A stretch of 64,000 bases of DNA from Bernardetia sp. ABR2-2B (GTDB taxonomy: Bacteria > Bacteroidota > Bacteroidia > Cytophagales > Bernardetiaceae), in assembly GCF_037126435.1 (NCBI RefSeq), contig NZ_CP147020.1, forward strand, positions 2,221,293-2,285,292, given 5' to 3'. The notes below the pieces were generated by a model. It did not search any database. It was not told the DNA's origin and saw nothing but the letters and a program-made list of their open reading frames with translations. This document shows positions 9,958-43,002 of this stretch, piece after piece. The position numbers and the translations under genes are program-made. Within the stretch, counting starts at the first letter, position 1; each line of letters begins with the position of its first letter.

Positions 9958-10457
9958 CCGTTGTCGGTGTTTAAGCGTAGCGACACCGACAACAAAAACT
10001 ACCCAAAAATCTATGGAAATAACAATAAAGAATTACTCAAAATGAATTTTGTGCGGTCATGAAACGTTTTTTGCAAGTGTTCTTGTTGGTGTCGCTGCGC
10101 TAAAACACCAACAAGGGCAGAGGAAAATACCTATATATTTTTACCTTGTAACAAGAAGTTTGTCACTTGATAAATGAATCATAACATAAAAGCAGAAGCA
10201 CTAGCCGTTGTCGGTGTTTAGGCATAGCGACACCGACAACAAAAAACTACCCATAAATCTATAGAAATAACAATAAAGAATTACTCAAAATGAATTTTGT
10301 GCAGTCATGAAACGTTTTTTGCAAGTGTTCTTGTTGGTGTCGCTGCGCTAAAACACCAACAAGGGCAGAGGAAAATACCTATATATTTTTATCTTGATAA
10401 CAAGAAGTTTTGTAACTTGATAAACCAATCATAACAGAAAAGCAGAAGAACTAGCCA
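9958..10457. mobile_element. two tandem non-autonomous derivatives of the RAYT element
   Basis: Two units of about 247-250 bases repeat head to tail and lead directly into the RAYT copy. Each has a left hairpin (9960-9993 and 10207-10240, 11-bp stems), a core of about 90 bases, and a right hairpin (10082-10115 and 10330-10363, 11-bp stems). The cores keep the RAYT 5' edge (AATCTATGGAAA) and 3' edge (AATTTTGTGC), with the coding middle missing. They are therefore internally deleted copies that could be moved in trans. Confidence 0.8.
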
Positions 10458-10489
10458 TTGTCGGTGTTTAAGCGTAGCGACACCGACAA
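10458..10489. repeat. left-end hairpin of the RAYT copy
   Basis: TTGTCGGTGT (10458-10467) pairs perfectly with ACACCGACAA (10480-10489) around the loop TTAAGCGTAGCG. Its reverse complement has the same loop pattern (CGCTNCGCTNAA) as the right-end hairpins, so the two ends are inverted copies of one motif. Confidence 0.85.
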
Positions 10490-10508
10490 CAAAAACTGCC
10501 ACAAATCT

Positions 10509-11057
10509 ATGGAAAACGAAGATGAAGAGTTATTCGAACACATTTATCCTAACTTTTTTACGGCTACAATTTTAAACTGGTTACCTCTTTTGAAGCTAGA
10601 TAAATACAAACAGTTGATTATTGATTCATTAGCTTTTTTGGTAACTCAAAAAAGAGTAAAAGTGTATGCTTTTGTGATTATGCCTAATCATATTCATTTG
10701 ATGTGGAAAATTTTAGCACCTTATCGTTTGTCAAATGTGAAGCGTGATTTTTTTAAATTTTTGTCCAATAAAATCAAAAAAGACTTAAAAGAGTTTCATC
10801 CTAACGTTTTACCTCGTTTTGAATCAACTCAAAGCGACAGAAAATATCAGTTTTGGCAGCGTAACCCTTTGCCTATTTTTCTTTATTCTAGGAAAGTGCT
10901 AGAACAAAAATTAGATTATGTTCATCACAATCCAGTAAAAGGAAAATGGATGTTGGTAGGTTCTTTAGAACAATATAAATGGAGTTCTTTTAATTTTTAT
11001 GAAGAAGAAACAAATGATTTTGAATTTTTATCGCATTATATGGAGCAGTATGAGTAA
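10509..11057 (+). CDS. REP-associated tyrosine transposase (RAYT, Y1 family)
   Basis: A single-strand HUH/Y1 transposase of the RAYT branch of IS200/IS605. The metal-binding motif MPNHIHLMW (HIH near residues 61-63) and the nucleophile region KLDYVHHNPVKGKWM (Tyr near residue 137) are both intact, as is WSSFNFY. The frame can be extended upstream to 10458, but that stretch is the left hairpin itself. The ATG at 10509 (182 aa) is therefore the better start. The gene sits between inverted hairpins at 10458-10489 and 11073-11106, and two deleted copies precede it, so it looks like the mobilising enzyme for this palindrome family. Confidence 0.9.
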   Translation: MENEDEELFEHIYPNFFTATILNWLPLLKLDKYKQLIIDSLAFLVTQKRVKVYAFVIMPNHIHLMWKILAPYRLSNVKRDFFKFLSNKIKKDLKEFHPNVLPRFESTQSDRKYQFWQRNPLPIFLYSRKVLEQKLDYVHHNPVKGKWMLVGSLEQYKWSSFNFYEEETNDFEFLSHYMEQYE

Positions 11058-11072
11058 TTTTGTGCAAATGTT

Positions 11073-11106
11073 CTTGTCGGTGTTGCTTCGCTAAAATACC
11101 GACAAG
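11073..11106. repeat. right-end hairpin of the RAYT copy
   Basis: CTTGTCGGTGT (11073-11083) pairs with ATACCGACAAG (11096-11106), with one G-T pair, around the loop TGCTTCGCTAAA. It begins 15 bases after the RAYT stop and is followed by GGCAGA, as in the other right ends. Confidence 0.85.
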
Positions 11107-15058: not shown

Positions 15059-15814
15059 ATGAATGCTTCAAATATATCTGTTACTCGTACTATTCCACAA
15101 ATTGACTCTTCCAAAGGTACTCGCTATGCCATTTCGGACATACATGGCTGCGCTCAAACGTTCAAAGCACTCATCAAAAAAATAAACCTTTCTTCTCATG
15201 ACCAGCTTTTTTTATTAGGAGATTATATCAATAAAGGACCTGATAGCAAAGGAGTTTTAGATTATATTATAGAACTTCAAAAAACCTACTCTGTTTTTTG
15301 TTTGCGAGGAAATCACGAAGAACTTCTTATAAGAGCGCATCGTAGGGCAGGAGGAGATAAATCAATTCGTCTCGTTCCTGTTTTGCATCGTGGGAGAGGT
15401 TTGGTAGATGAAAACCGTCGTATTCTGCCTGAATATTTACCTTTTTTGGAAAGTTTGTGTTATTATTTTGAATTAGAAGATTATTATTTGGTTCATGCAG
15501 GTTTTGATTTTGAAGCTCCAGACCCTTTCTCTGAAACTGAAAAAATGCTTTGGTTGCGTTATTTCGAAGTTGATACAAATATAGTGGGCGAAAAAAGAGT
15601 TATTCACGGACATGTTCCTGAATATTTACAGTTTATTCAAGAAGAGATTGACTATGGTTATCCTTCTATTTGTATTGATAATGGTTGTGTTTATAAAGCA
15701 CGTAGAAAAGCAGGTTTGGGACAACTCTTAGCTCTTAACTTAGATACTTTAGAAATCATTTTGCAAGAAAATATAGAAACAGAACGCTCTTCGTCAAGAA
15801 GTCATTTTTTGTAA
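15059..15814 (+). CDS. PPP-type metallophosphoesterase (serine/threonine phosphatase-like)
   Basis: A 251-aa calcineurin-like phosphoesterase of the bacterial PPP group. Metal-ligand motifs are visible in order: SDIHG (26-30), GDYINKG (54-60), RGNHE (83-87), a VHAGF motif, and IHGHVPE near residue 182. The usual GDxxDRG reads GDYINKG, so the second Asp is Asn and the Arg is Lys. The three core metal motifs remain, so a phosphatase role is likely, but substrate (protein or dinucleotide) is not shown. It is a single gene followed by the 52-bp tandem repeat. Confidence 0.85.
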   Translation: MNASNISVTRTIPQIDSSKGTRYAISDIHGCAQTFKALIKKINLSSHDQLFLLGDYINKGPDSKGVLDYIIELQKTYSVFCLRGNHEELLIRAHRRAGGDKSIRLVPVLHRGRGLVDENRRILPEYLPFLESLCYYFELEDYYLVHAGFDFEAPDPFSETEKMLWLRYFEVDTNIVGEKRVIHGHVPEYLQFIQEEIDYGYPSICIDNGCVYKARRKAGLGQLLALNLDTLEIILQENIETERSSSRSHFL

Positions 15815-15827
15815 AAAGAAGGATTGC

Positions 15828-16139
15828 TCCCAGCTCCTTGCATTCGTATTTCCCTAATTCCCAATATCTATTTCCTATGTCCTAAATAATTGCATTCGTA
15901 TTTCCCTAATTCCCAATATCTATTTCCTATGTCCTAAATAATTGCATTCGTATTTCCCTAGTTCCCAATATCTATTTCCTATGTCCTAAATAATTGCATT
16001 CGTATTTCCCTAGTTCCCAATATCTATTTCCTATGTCCTAAATAATTGCATTCGTATTTCCCTAGTTCCCAATATCTATTTCCTGTGTCCTAAATAATTG
16101 CATTCATATTTCCCTAGTTCCCAATATCCAGTCCCTAAT
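15828..16139. repeat. 52-bp tandem repeat between convergent genes
   Basis: Six copies start at 15841, 15893, 15945, 15997, 16049 and 16101 (the last is diverged), with period exactly 52. Key words are CATTCGTATTTCCCTA, TTCCCAATATCTATTTCC and GTCCTAAATAATTG. Copies 1-2 read CTAATT where copies 3-6 read CTAGTT, so there is an internal mutation gradient. Copies abut without spacers. The array fills nearly the whole gap between the stops at 15814 and 16142. Confidence 0.95.
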
Positions 16140-16141
16140 TC

Positions 16142-17137
16142 CTAATAAGCTGCTCTTCTCAAACGGTCATTGATTGCTCTTCCTAATTCTTTTTCGGGTA
16201 AAAGTTCTGCCAAAATAATTTTAATATTGAGCTTATCTAGTTCTCTCATATGAGAAAAAAGGTTTTGTGCAGCTTCCGAAAAATCACCTTTTTCTGATAA
16301 AACAAATTGATGTTGAGTAGGAATTTGATTGTACGTTTTATTAAATGACAAAATTCCTATTTCATTATTTGATATATTTTCCTTCAACATTTGTTCGATA
16401 TTTCCCAAACGCATTTTTATTTTGGGTGCATAATGACTCAAAAGCATTCCAGAAGAAGCTACTTTTGTTAGTTCTTTTTTATCAGAATGAGGATTCGAAT
16501 TTGAATGTTCCTTTACAATCAGTTTTCCCACTACTTTCTCTAGTTCTTCTATTGCTATTCCTCCTTTTCTAAAAACTGTTAGTTGTCCATTTTCTTCTCC
16601 AATTATTGTTGATTCTACTCCTATCTGACAGCTTCCCCCATCTAAAATATAACTTACTTTTTCGCCTAATTGCTCAAAAACATGATTTGCCGTTGTCGGA
16701 CTGATATAACCAAACGGATTTGCACTTGGTGCAGCTAGTGGAAAATCAAGACTTTTAAGAAGCTCTAAAGTAAGACTATGGTTTGGAATACGAACAGCAA
16801 CGTGTGGAAGCCCACTTGTTACAAGGTCTGGAATAATTGGTTTTCTAGGTAAGAGTAGTGTCAAAGCACCTGCCCAAAAATGTTTTCCTAGTTCTTCTGC
16901 CCAGCTTGGAAAATCAGTTGTCCAGCTTTTAATTTTATCAATACTGTCTGTATGGACAATCAAAGGGTCAAAAGTAGGACGGTTTTTGGCTTCAAAAATT
17001 TTGGCAACAGCCTTTATATCAAAAGCATTGGCTGCCAAACCATAAACTGTTTCGGTAGGAATAGCAACTAAACTTCCTTTTTCTAAATTTTCTTTTGCAA
17101 TTTTTATATTGCTTCCAATAATTGATTTTTGATTCAA
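16142..17137 (-). CDS. L-threonylcarbamoyladenylate synthase, Sua5 type
   Basis: Makes threonylcarbamoyl-AMP from threonine, bicarbonate and ATP for the t6A37 modification of ANN-decoding tRNAs. The YrdC domain shows GSLVAIPTETVYGLAANA, KNRPTFDPLIVH, VAVRIPNH and the SANPFGYISPT region. A C-terminal Sua5 domain (SSGMLLSHYAPK, then ELGRAINDRLRRA) brings it to 331 aa, distinguishing it from short TsaC. The C-terminal codons abut the 52-bp tandem repeat array. It appears to be a single-gene unit. Confidence 0.92.
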   Translation of the reverse strand: MNQKSIIGSNIKIAKENLEKGSLVAIPTETVYGLAANAFDIKAVAKIFEAKNRPTFDPLIVHTDSIDKIKSWTTDFPSWAEELGKHFWAGALTLLLPRKPIIPDLVTSGLPHVAVRIPNHSLTLELLKSLDFPLAAPSANPFGYISPTTANHVFEQLGEKVSYILDGGSCQIGVESTIIGEENGQLTVFRKGGIAIEELEKVVGKLIVKEHSNSNPHSDKKELTKVASSGMLLSHYAPKIKMRLGNIEQMLKENISNNEIGILSFNKTYNQIPTQHQFVLSEKGDFSEAAQNLFSHMRELDKLNIKIILAELLPEKELGRAINDRLRRAAY

Positions 17138-24686: not shown

Positions 24687-25880
24687 TCAAAAAGCTTCTG
24701 CTACTCCAAAATAGAAATTTAGGTTATCCCCTTTTGCTATATCAAAACGAAGGTTGAGCCTTTCAGCTTTTGAAAGTTGGAAACGTATTCCTGCCCCATA
24801 GCCTGTTTTTAGATTAGATAGATTGAGTTCTGAAACAGAATTATATACCTGTCCAATGCTCCCAAAAATAACCATTCCAATAGGTTCAAGAATTGGAAAG
24901 CGATATTCTGCTTGTGTTGCAATAACGTTGTTATCTATAAAACGCCCTTGAATATAGCCTCTCATAAGTTCATTTCCTCCCAATGGAGCTAGTTCTAGTA
25001 GGGGAGTAGTTTGACTATTAAAAATTCCAAAGGCTTGAAATGCAAGTATATCGTTTCTTTCAGAGAGTTTGAAATAATGTCGCATATCCATTTGAAGTGT
25101 TCGAAAAGGAATACTACCTCCTATTTTTTGATGGTTTACATATCTAAAGTTGTAAAAAACTCCTTTGAAGCAGTTCAAAATATTATCTCTACTATCCAAA
25201 ATAGCACCTAACTGCCATCCTATAGCTACTGAACCTTTATAGCCAAAAGGCTTTTCCATATCTATCAGTCCTTCTTTGTTATACTTAATATTCCAAATGT
25301 TTCTATATCTAAAACCTACACCTAGGAAAAACTGTCCAAAAATTTTCTTGTACAAGATATTTGAAGAGCGAATATTTTGATAATCAATGATTTCCTCATC
25401 TTCTTTACGTGAAGAAATTCCGATACCAAAATAAGATTGAAGAAACTTAGAATATCTACTATTTCCCCTAATCATATAGTTTTCGTGGTTAGTAAAAATG
25501 GTGTATCTGCTGCCTATAATAAACTGATTTCTGAGAGTGTAGGCTATCATATTACCTGCATTGGAAGTACGAGTAGAGGAAGAGATATTTTTAAATCTGA
25601 AATTCCAATTGATTCCTGTTCCTACTCCCCAACTTGTAACAGGGCTATATGTAAGCCCAGGAGAGAGAACTAATTTGCTTCTGAACCGAATTGAGTCTTG
25701 TGTTTTCTCTGCTTTGTTCTGAAAAGCTAATAAATCTGTGATTTTTTTGACAAAACTCTTTTGCTCTGTTTTGTTTTGGGTAAGATGTGTAGAATCTGTT
25801 GTGTGAGAAGTTTGTGCTTTTAGTATTCTTGGAGAATAACATAAAACTACAAAAAAGTATAAAAATAAAGTACGTTGCAT
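24687..25880 (-). CDS. BamA/TamA-type outer-membrane beta-barrel without POTRA domains
   Basis: A 397-aa protein with an N-terminal signal peptide (LFLYFFVVLCYSPRILKAQ) and a barrel of the Omp85/surface-antigen type. Alternating strands run through WNFRFKNISSS, FLGVGFRYRNIWNIKYN and AIGWQLGAILDSRDNILNC. The signature stretch ELAPLGGNELMRGYIQGRFI precedes VIATQAEYRFPILEPIGMVI, and the protein ends in an aromatic Phe (GVAEAF). There are no POTRA domains before the barrel, as in patatin-associated or free-standing forms. Probably an outer-membrane channel or assembly factor. Same strand as the redox lipoproteins around it. Confidence 0.85.
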   Translation of the reverse strand: MQRTLFLYFFVVLCYSPRILKAQTSHTTDSTHLTQNKTEQKSFVKKITDLLAFQNKAEKTQDSIRFRSKLVLSPGLTYSPVTSWGVGTGINWNFRFKNISSSTRTSNAGNMIAYTLRNQFIIGSRYTIFTNHENYMIRGNSRYSKFLQSYFGIGISSRKEDEEIIDYQNIRSSNILYKKIFGQFFLGVGFRYRNIWNIKYNKEGLIDMEKPFGYKGSVAIGWQLGAILDSRDNILNCFKGVFYNFRYVNHQKIGGSIPFRTLQMDMRHYFKLSERNDILAFQAFGIFNSQTTPLLELAPLGGNELMRGYIQGRFIDNNVIATQAEYRFPILEPIGMVIFGSIGQVYNSVSELNLSNLKTGYGAGIRFQLSKAERLNLRFDIAKGDNLNFYFGVAEAF

Positions 25881-26092
25881 TGAAAAATATCTATTTGGGA
25901 AATAGTTTTGAAGTTTTTTTGAATTTGTAATGTATCTTTCCCCAAAAGAATTATCAATCTTTGATAGATATTTTATTTAGCAAAGGTTGATAGTTTTAAT
26001 TTCCCCCCGTTTCCACAATATTTATTTTATGGAATACGATTTTATATCAAAATACAAAATAATATACAGTATTTCTAAAATCACTAAAATAA

Positions 26093-27275
26093 TTACAGAC
26101 TATTGATATATTCAATCACTAGCTCAACTCCTTCTTCATCAATTACAGTTGTTCCTAAATAGGGCATTTCTCCACTTTGTAGAACTTCCTTAATTTTATC
26201 CTTATTATCTAAGATTCTAGTATTTGATATATCTGTCTCAAATCTAAAATCGTAACCTGTTCTTGCTGGTCTGCTCCATCCAGAAGGGCTATGACAATGA
26301 GCACAGTTCATTTCCATATAAGCCCTGCCTTTCTCTACTGATGTAACATTTAAACTTTTGTAGTTTGGAATTTTTGCAACTTGACTTTTATCAAAATCAT
26401 TTAGAATCTCAAGCGATTGTAAGTGTTCTAATTGATTGATACTTTCATTATTTCGTATTACATCTATATTTAGGTTTCTTAGCTTAGGACCTATCGGCAA
26501 AACTTCTGAATTGAGTTGGTGGCAAGAAATACATTCATTTTGATTCGGTACTTGATACCTAATTGTTCTGTTTATCCCAGACAGAGTTGTCCAACTGACT
26601 TGTGTATCATAACCATTTAATTTTAAGTCAGCATCCGTTTGTTCGTCATTCCAAACATAAGTAGCAACATTCCATAAACCCTCACTTTTAATAAGTAACC
26701 TTGTTTCTATTACCTTTTTGCCCAAAGTTGTATCTCTAACATCATTGAAATAATAAAATGTTTTGACCAAAATTGTTCCATTAGAAAAAATAGGAATACC
26801 ATTACCATCATATATCATTTTTTCTCCTGTGGGTAGTTTAACGAGCCTTTGTTTCTCAGCATAATTTGAAAATAAAGCTGAACTAAGTTCTAATAAATGG
26901 TATTCTGCAGAAGGATTCAATTTTTTAATCTCTCCTTGATAAATATTGTAGCTAGAGAGTTTATCTTCAAACTGCTCTGTTCTTGGTATTGGGAGAGAGT
27001 CTTCTTGCTCTGCACAAGAAAATAATATTAACGTGAACTCGGTATTAAAAACAGTTTGAAATATCTCTCTATCTACAAGGAAAGCTACTTTCGGTCTGCT
27101 CTAACGATACTGACCTACTTTTAATCAAGGTCAGCCCGAAAGGGCAGTACCGAAGATTAAAAAAAACAGGCTAACTATTTGACAATCAGTAGGTATAATC
27201 CCGAGTTTACGTTAATATTACTAATGAACATATAACCAGAGACAAGAATAAAAATAGGGAATTGTTATTTTTCAT
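26093..27275 (-). pseudogene. SO2930-type diheme cytochrome c lipoprotein, broken in its signal peptide by a mobile element
   Basis: The intact 3' part encodes two heme c motifs, NECISCHQLN and NCAHCHSPSG, with LPIGPKLRNLNID between them, matching the SO2930/HNE_0200 family. Without the insert at 27031-27212 and one 8-base target copy, the ATG at 27273-27275 reads into the frame. It gives the leader MKNNNSLFLFLSLV followed by ICSLVILFSC and AEQED, a perfect lipobox. With the insert the frame stops at TAA inside the element's end after 22 residues, and no ATG, GTG or TTG follows before codon TTG at 26920. Likely non-functional now. An untreated reading would call only a 275-aa leaderless protein. 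Confidence 0.85.
27031..27212. mobile_element. 182-bp miniature inverted-repeat element, copy 1
   Basis: The left end ACGTGAACTCGG (27031) and the right end CCGAGTTTACGT (to 27212) are inverted repeats with one mismatch. TAATATTA lies on both sides (27023-27030 and 27213-27220), an 8-bp target duplication confirmed by the rebuilt host gene. The interior holds palindromic words (GGTCTGCTCTAACGATACTG, CCGAAAGGGC) but no ORF. Confidence 0.92.
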
Positions 27276-27287
27276 TTGTAATTGTGA

Positions 27288-27441
27288 AGTTGTTTAAGAA
27301 TAGGAAAGCTAAGGTCTATATGTTACCAAACATGAATAGGAATTAGAAAACTAAAAATATCTGAAATACACTACCAAACGGTCTGCTCTACGAAGCTGAC
27401 CTATATGGAAATATAGTAGCAAGAATCATTCTTAAACAGGT
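27288..27441. mobile_element. 154-bp miniature element with the same ends as 14847-14980
   Basis: AGTTGTTTAAGAAT (27288-27301) and ATTCTTAAACAGGT (27428-27441) are inverted ends shared with the other copy. No clear target duplication is visible. The interior carries GGTCTGCTCTACGAAGCTGA, a word also present inside the unrelated element at 27031-27212. Confidence 0.55.
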
Positions 27442-27514
27442 TTGGTGTTTTAAAAACTATCTTCTCAATAGACGTATTTTTTTATTCTACCCCCTATTTG
27501 ATTTCAAATAAATT

Positions 27515-28261
27515 TTACAAATCATCATTATCAGCCTTTGGAGGTGTTCGGATTCCTACTAAAAGACTGCTCCACTCATCAGCTTTCCATAATCCTTTGT
27601 CATTGCGAGTTACTTTTATAGGACGTGGCGAATCTGCTCCCGAAGAAGGCACAAATAACTTTATTTTTCCTTCATCTTCTGAGCCACTATATTTATTTGT
27701 AGAAAAACTAAACTTCAAAGGCTTGTCAGATAAACTATATCCTTCTTGTGGAGATGTTTCCAAAACATAAGAGTTAGGTAAAAAAGGGTAGCGTTTGAGT
27801 TGGTCTTTTATCAAACGAAGGTCAGAAGGATTGGGAATATAGCCTTTATAACCTTTACTACTTTTTTGTAAGCGAGATTTTGCTACTGCCACAGTCAGAG
27901 GAGCTAAATCATTATCCGAAGAATTGACATACATCATACAAGCCACAATAAACATTGTTGCACCTCCTTTTGGTGTTGTGGAAATTTTATCACGAACTTC
28001 TAAAAACTCATCTATATTTTGAGGCAAACGGCTTATTTCAACTTCATTATTTTCTTCTTTGATAGATATTGAAGGCAAGTTATTGACTGGTTCTGATGTT
28101 TCTGTATTCTCTGTATTAGAAGATGTCGTTGTATTATTTTTTTCTTCTGTGGCAGAAGCTTCTGATTTTTCTATCTTGGTGTTTTCTTGTTTTTCTGATT
28201 TATTTTGACAGGAAACATTCAAAAAAAGTAAGCAGAGTAAAAAAAGAGAGTAACGTAACAT
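27515..28261 (-). CDS. lipoprotein, DUF6935-like
   Basis: The ATG at 28261 gives MLRYSLFLLCLLFLNVSC, a clean lipobox, rather than the TTG two codons upstream. A Ser/Thr/Glu/Asn-rich linker of about 50 residues (TEEKNNTTTSSNTENTETSE) follows, then a compact domain. The domain contains TTPKGGATMFIVACMMYVNS, VAVAKSRLQKSSKGYKGYIP and DSPRPIKVTRNDKGLWKADE. The central words resemble the DUF6935 family. Expected to be tethered to the outer or inner membrane on a flexible stalk. Function unknown. Confidence 0.65.
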   Translation of the reverse strand: MLRYSLFLLCLLFLNVSCQNKSEKQENTKIEKSEASATEEKNNTTTSSNTENTETSEPVNNLPSISIKEENNEVEISRLPQNIDEFLEVRDKISTTPKGGATMFIVACMMYVNSSDNDLAPLTVAVAKSRLQKSSKGYKGYIPNPSDLRLIKDQLKRYPFLPNSYVLETSPQEGYSLSDKPLKFSFSTNKYSGSEDEGKIKLFVPSSGADSPRPIKVTRNDKGLWKADEWSSLLVGIRTPPKADNDDL

Positions 28262-28309
28262 AAGCAATAAGTAAAGTTTGGTGAAATAATGTAAGTAGAA
28301 AAACTTATT

Positions 28310-42672: not shown

Positions 42673-42687
42673 TTTTGATTATCATTA

Positions 42688-42947
42688 ACGTGAACTCGGT
42701 ATTATATTTTTCAATTTTTACTCCTTTAGGAGTTCAATGTTGGTAGCAAATAAAGTAAAAAAGTGGTTCTTTACTCCTTTAGGAGTTATATATTCATTTC
42801 TCCACGTCAAAGATTTATATGTAGTTCCTACGGAACAATTTGATTTTAATCGTCTATTTTCTACCAACATATAGTTCTGATGGAACAAAATACAAAAAAT
42901 AGTGTGTAAACAGTTGAATTATAGTTTATTAAAAGCCGAGTTCACGT
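42688..42947. mobile_element. 260-bp miniature inverted-repeat element, copy 2
   Basis: The ends ACGTGAACTCGG (42688) and CCGAGTTCACGT (to 42947) are exact 12-bp inverted repeats. TATCATTA lies on both sides (42680-42687 and 42948-42955), an 8-bp target duplication. The interior differs from copy 1 and holds two copies of the palindromic word ACTCCTTTAGGAGT. No ORF. Confidence 0.93.
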
Positions 42948-43002
42948 TATCATTAGTGATTAATAGTAAAAAAATAATAGCATAAACTAAAAAACTTTGG
43001 GT

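Follow-up and report, generated by a model that had tools for sequence, protein, structure and literature searches.

The sequence analyzed here, called the window below, is a stretch of 64,000 nucleotides from the genome of Bernardetia sp. ABR2-2B. Its minus strand carries a gene for a diheme cytochrome c, the leader of which is split by a 182-bp element at 27031-27212. The features of the site are listed below, together with a second element of the window that has the same type of ends.

26093-27022, minus strand: body of the SO2930-like diheme cytochrome c gene, open and without a start of its own
26291-26305, minus strand: heme motif CAHCH; C240, C243 and H244 are invariant in alignment A1
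26519-26533, minus strand: heme motif CISCH; C164, C167 and H168 are invariant in alignment A1
27023-27030, no strand: target-site duplication TAATATTA, copy on the gene-body side
27031-27212, no strand: element classified as an IS982-derived MITE, 182 bp, non-coding, with copies in the genome and ends as on the 1050-bp IS982 of congeners
27031-27047, plus strand: terminal inverted repeat ACGTGAACTCGGTATTA, no mismatches to the end pattern
27196-27212, minus strand: terminal inverted repeat ACGTAAACTCGGGATTA, one mismatch to the family pattern
27207-27209, minus strand: premature TAA, from the end of the element
27213-27220, no strand: target-site duplication TAATATTA, copy on the ATG side
27221-27275, minus strand: detached 5' portion of the cytochrome gene, comprising the ATG (27275-27273) and the larger part of the signal peptide
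42688-42947, no strand: second element, 260 bp, sharing the IS982-type ends but not the interior, between exact 8-bp copies of TATCATTA at 42680-42687 and 42948-42955

A miniature element in the leader of a cytochrome gene

The element starts with ACGTGAACTCGG and ends with CCGAGTTTACGT. Its 17-bp inverted ends are imperfect, with two differences. Neither strand has an ORF of at least 60 aa that overlaps it, and all three minus-strand frames contain stops. Folded as a single strand it reaches -52.3 kcal/mol (z -5.5), as expected of a long inverted structure. The frame of the gene that opens at ATG 27275 runs for 22 residues and ends at the TAA 27209-27207 inside the element end. The premature stop is independent of mutation in this particular copy, because the family consensus end gives TGA at the same codon. 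The net insertion amounts to 190 bp, so the cytochrome frame is shifted as well. When the flanks are joined with one TAATATTA, an open frame of 330 aa is obtained with a leader ending in CSLVILFSC.

The original prediction had described a miniature element in the cytochrome gene, an early stop combined with a frame shift, and a frame that is restored when the element and one duplicate are taken out. Each of these was confirmed by direct reading: the element lies at 27031-27212 between two copies of TAATATTA, the stop and the 190-bp shift are there, and removal of the element with one TAATATTA joins ATG 27275 to the body without interruption.

The body was also predicted to encode a diheme cytochrome, and this identity holds. 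It contains two CxxCH motifs, and its best NCBIfam match is TIGR03806 (E 2.5e-69, 233.9 bits), though below the cut-off of 313.3 bits. As the score is under this curated cut-off, we call the gene SO2930-like and do not file it as a member. The C-terminal part of the body matches the cytochrome c domain PF00034. Compared with TIGR03806, the two CxxCH motifs and other blocks are alike and invariant with seven order-level relatives, whereas a segment of about 25 residues, present in those seven ahead of the C-terminal Met region, is missing from the ABR2-2B body. Alignment A1 consists of seven of the eight order-level relatives and includes neither L055 (the source gene) nor L059 (the eighth relative).

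The rebuilt start and its relatives

The rebuilt protein begins with a basic-hydrophobic leader ending in LFSC, which passes a home-made lipobox rule. A similar automatic rule, applied to the best 80 among 582 confirmed relatives (mostly from Bacteroidota), found a lipoprotein-type leader in 48. The remaining 32 of these 80 fail the rule; several clearly have other leaders, and in some cases the rule itself seems to have missed one. In a scan of named genomes, which may omit records very near the source genome, the first six listed relatives are Flavobacteriales, Bacteroidia and Bacteroidetes records with 48-56% identity, and five of the six pass. Among the listed matches, L123 is second by identity (51.5%) and fails, being one of those with a clearly different leader. 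The alignment with L128 begins at the first residue of the rebuilt protein and places the FSC of L128 opposite the FSC beside the insertion (LICFSCKKDE in L128, VILFSCAEQED in the rebuilt protein). The leaders in 48 of the best 80 relatives support a lipoprotein start for the rebuilt protein. With five of the six first-listed relatives passing, the lipoprotein nature claimed for the rebuilt start is retained as a prediction based on a home-made rule.

Could the element simply lie upstream of the gene, with the real start downstream of the element and with ATG 27275 and the hydrophobic codons after it produced by chance? Mechanical ORF calling gives the body a longest frame of 275 aa from TTG 26920, which would suit such an arrangement, and no empty site was found in the genomes searched. 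However, the 275-aa product has no export leader, while the leaders of many relatives directly precede the region aligned with the body. TTG 26920 is residue 35 of the body, and homology extends upstream of it, to body residue 4 in L123 and to residue 1 in L128. A leader of the rebuilt kind is also uncommon by chance. Of 127,700 arbitrary joins to the same body, made from overlapping 150-base stretches of both strands of the window, 1136 (0.9%) had an acceptable leader. We therefore consider a start downstream of the element very improbable, and an insertion within the leader is the reading we keep. The earlier remark that a gene caller would report a misleading leaderless protein here is plausible.

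Length of the flanking duplication

The original prediction held that the gene can be rebuilt exactly. TAATATTA is its own reverse complement, and with a palindromic flank the copy at 27031-27212 alone cannot prove a target duplication. A 2-bp duplication (TA only) with longer inverted ends fits this copy too, and the resulting join is likewise in frame. TAATATTA would then belong to the inverted ends, and the original leader would have been two residues shorter.

Other members of the family bear on this choice. We compared the flanks of 23 elements with these ends, chosen from the three genomes G000, G002 and G006, and 19 of them have perfectly matching direct repeats of 6-8 bp on the two sides. 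By class, the duplications measure 6-8 bp in 13/16 short elements and 6-7 bp in 6/7 IS copies. As a control, left and right flanks from different elements were paired; 6 of 506 such pairs showed an exact duplication of 6 bp or more, and none of the 506 shared an exact 8-mer. The four elements without an exact 6-mer duplication are L009 (8 bp with one mismatch), L048, L098 and L102. Outside this count stand L006, L105 (a partial IS), L108, fragments and all copies from G001, G003, G004 and G005; L006 has TAAGAAA on both flanks by eye and a deletion at its end.

The flanks of the source-genome copies vary and are mostly direct repeats of 6-8 bp, such as TAATTTTA, TAACTA, TATTCAA and TAAAATA. Just TA is exact in two of the 23 elements (L009 and L098), as a TA-only duplication would have it. 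Elsewhere the bases beside the ends vary among copies yet match directly across the element (TAATTTTA, TATCATTA and TATTCAA are examples), which makes the TA-only scheme extremely improbable. Exact rebuilding thus holds through the duplications of the family (19/23 against 6/506 in the control) and does not follow from the palindromic 8-mer of this copy by itself.

The element family and its IS982 partner

The source genome (5.38 Mb in four contigs, 99.5% complete) contains at least 14 matches to the element, at least 10 of them near full length, with 40 of the 49 first-look candidates scored. The copy at 27031-27212 departs from the consensus of 10 copies at 5 of its 182 positions, compared with 23 positions for L010 and between 1 and 9 for each remaining copy. 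Whole or partial matches occur in five of the six congeners and in none of the four other genomes of the same family, with up to 40 candidates scored per genome (at least 40 matches in G003).

A search of the family with the end pattern located the same ACGTGAACTCGG ends 1050 bp apart in the congeners G002 and G006, where six and one of these elements, respectively, were read. Two transposases were scanned, one from a G002 copy (302 aa) and one from the G006 copy (301 aa); they match NF033520, the IS982 family, with 210.5 and 209.8 bits at a cut-off of 130. Among the 11 same-family genomes, these two are the only ones with an IS982 transposase. The search of the source genome for the IS982 family returned nothing over the cut-off, the best score being 12.5 bits (E 0.19).

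This score was reached by 16 equal matches on contig C1 (including L117-L122), each in an open frame of 376 aa, and these were not counted as IS982. They suggest a multi-copy transposase of another family. A pair of inward-facing ends 2.8 kb apart (about 3117894-3120692) was considered as an autonomous partner and rejected, as it spans an unrelated reading frame of 1165 aa. Four further end-bearing loci of the source genome showed no recognizable transposase in their ORF lists by eye.

The element is short and lacks a transposase gene, its ends are those of the autonomous IS982, its duplications fall in a similar length range, and its copies are dispersed. Since it has the ends of IS982 without a transposase, we classify it from these sequence features as a MITE derived from IS982. 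Because the source genome has no IS982 transposase above the cut-off, the MITE family looks orphaned there and is probably immobile at present. The suggestion that the family is, or recently was, active is weakened by this result and by the 5/182 differences from the consensus.

The copy in the cytochrome gene is the sole one of 10 in the source genome that lies well inside an ATG-started ORF of at least 50 aa. The L008 copy lies close to the end of a 147-codon ORF, with five codons left, and the other eight span no ATG-started ORF of at least 50 aa. In this test, the flanks of L006 and L009 were joined without removal of a duplicate.

Distribution and neighborhood of the cytochrome gene

At E <= 1e-20, the cytochrome gene is present in nine of 59 genomes, namely the source genome and eight of 48 from the same order. 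None of the six congeners and none of the four other same-family genomes has it at this threshold, two of these ten being 84% complete. The gene looks accessory in its genus. Its absence from the congeners means that no empty allele can be found within the genus. The original prediction had spoken of a before-and-after picture of one insertion event; the "before" is a reconstruction, and none of the genomes searched shows an empty site.

In G001, G002 and G006, scpA and a PhoX-like gene are adjacent, with no cytochrome gene between them. In G004 and G005, scpA adjoins a gene of 421 aa instead. The G003 contig breaks off within the gene that follows scpA. The interval from scpA to the PhoX-like gene in the window (24687-28267) is about 4 kb longer than in G001, G002 and G006, and it holds the cytochrome gene, an Omp85-like gene and a DUF6935 lipoprotein gene. 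A 73% match to the DUF6935 lipoprotein stands beside scpA in G003. The loci of the cytochrome relatives (best 80 of 582) gave no match at E <= 1e-6 to the MauG-like, PhoX-like, Omp85-like, DUF6935 or ScpA proteins of the window (0/80).

Proposed course of the insertion

On balance, the results point to an IS982-derived MITE, mobilized in trans, that inserted into the signal-peptide codons of the cytochrome gene, duplicated 8 bp and broke the gene; we give this reading a probability of about 0.92. An IS982 transposase acting in trans would have inserted the non-autonomous MITE, and the insertion would have duplicated an AT-rich target of 8 bp. Judging by the ends and the duplications, mobilization by the IS982 transposase is the most likely route. 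With translation ending after 22 residues and the frame shifted, the exported lipoprotein cytochrome would not be made from its own start. Heme attachment of the c type, which depends on cytochrome c maturation, is not expected in a leaderless body that is not exported. The gene was presumably functional before the insertion and would now be null.

Alternatively, the insertion might be tolerated or exapted, with the MITE providing transcription or a rare translation start so that the cytochrome is still made. The body is free of internal stops over 309 sense codons, and its frame continues without a stop through about 25 codons of the element. However, that open stretch contains no ATG, GTG or TTG. 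With a sigma-70-type consensus, which gives weak evidence for this organism, the region 26900-27520 gave one promoter-like match, located outside the element, against a shuffled mean of 2.5. In a neutral simulation at 2.7% divergence (point substitutions, no indels), the body remained free of stops by chance in 32%. At this neutral chance, the openness of the body says little about its age or continued use. Continued production of the cytochrome therefore appears very unlikely, and a gene broken by the MITE remains the preferred reading.

More speculatively, the MITE may have outlived its transposase here and move episodically when an IS982 from a congener enters. The cytochrome allele would then perhaps be polymorphic, and precise loss of the insert would work as a slow switch by which an exported electron carrier is turned on or off. 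We regard this scenario as a long shot.

Other repeats in the window

A second repeat is located at 27340-27470, just upstream of the broken gene, with at least 37 matches in the genome (40 of 92 candidates scored). Many of these matches cover only its hairpin core GGTCTGCTCTACGAAGCTGACC. The interior of the MITE has a core similar to GGTCTGCTCTACGAAGCTGACC, and many G003 matches cover that part of the MITE alone. The MITE may thus contain, or share, a smaller mobile hairpin.

The region 9960-11106 includes an ORF of 199 aa (10458-11057) with a weak match to Y1_Tnp (22.8 bits in hmmscan and 23 in the genome search, cut-off 23). Several short hairpins lie 5' of this ORF and one lies 3', with arms of 10-12 bp, for example GTTGTCGGTGT/ACACCGACAAC. 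We take the region to resemble a REP/RAYT-type unit. A direct-repeat array with a spacing of 52 bp and six copies in register occupies 15786-16197.

Comparison with known systems

The locus documents a gene loss cleanly: each component has a name, from the element family and its partner transposase to the duplicated target and the interrupted reading frame. It also illustrates how automated gene calling could produce a cytochrome without a leader. Its palindromic flank teaches that other copies should be compared before an insertion is called exactly reversible. The work also adds an IS982-derived MITE family that is apparently orphaned in its source genome.

Our literature search found no report joining IS982, MITE and target site duplication, and none on insertion sequences of Bernardetia. 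One paper that mentions Flavobacterium lists an IS982 element with direct repeats of 0 bp. The ABR2-2B element shares its ends with the autonomous 1050-bp elements of the congeners, which belong to the IS982 family (NF033520), but it has no transposase.

Cardinium is a member of the Bacteroidota. As outlined in sections of the report on the Cardinium strain cOegib, MITECca01 is about 240 bp long and is present in 169 copies, with intact parental IS982-family copies in the same genome (PMC9769881). According to these sections, its copies are mostly intergenic or inside other mobile elements and more rarely inactivate genes (PMC9769881). By this description, MITECca01 and the ABR2-2B element are alike in being short, in lacking a transposase gene and in having IS982-family ends; the ABR2-2B element differs in its length of 182 bp, its at least 10 near-full-length copies and a genome in which no IS982 transposase was found (PMC9769881). 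IS982-derived MITEs, some of them gene-inactivating, are thus already published in the phylum, and the insertion in the cytochrome gene is an ordinary kind of event.
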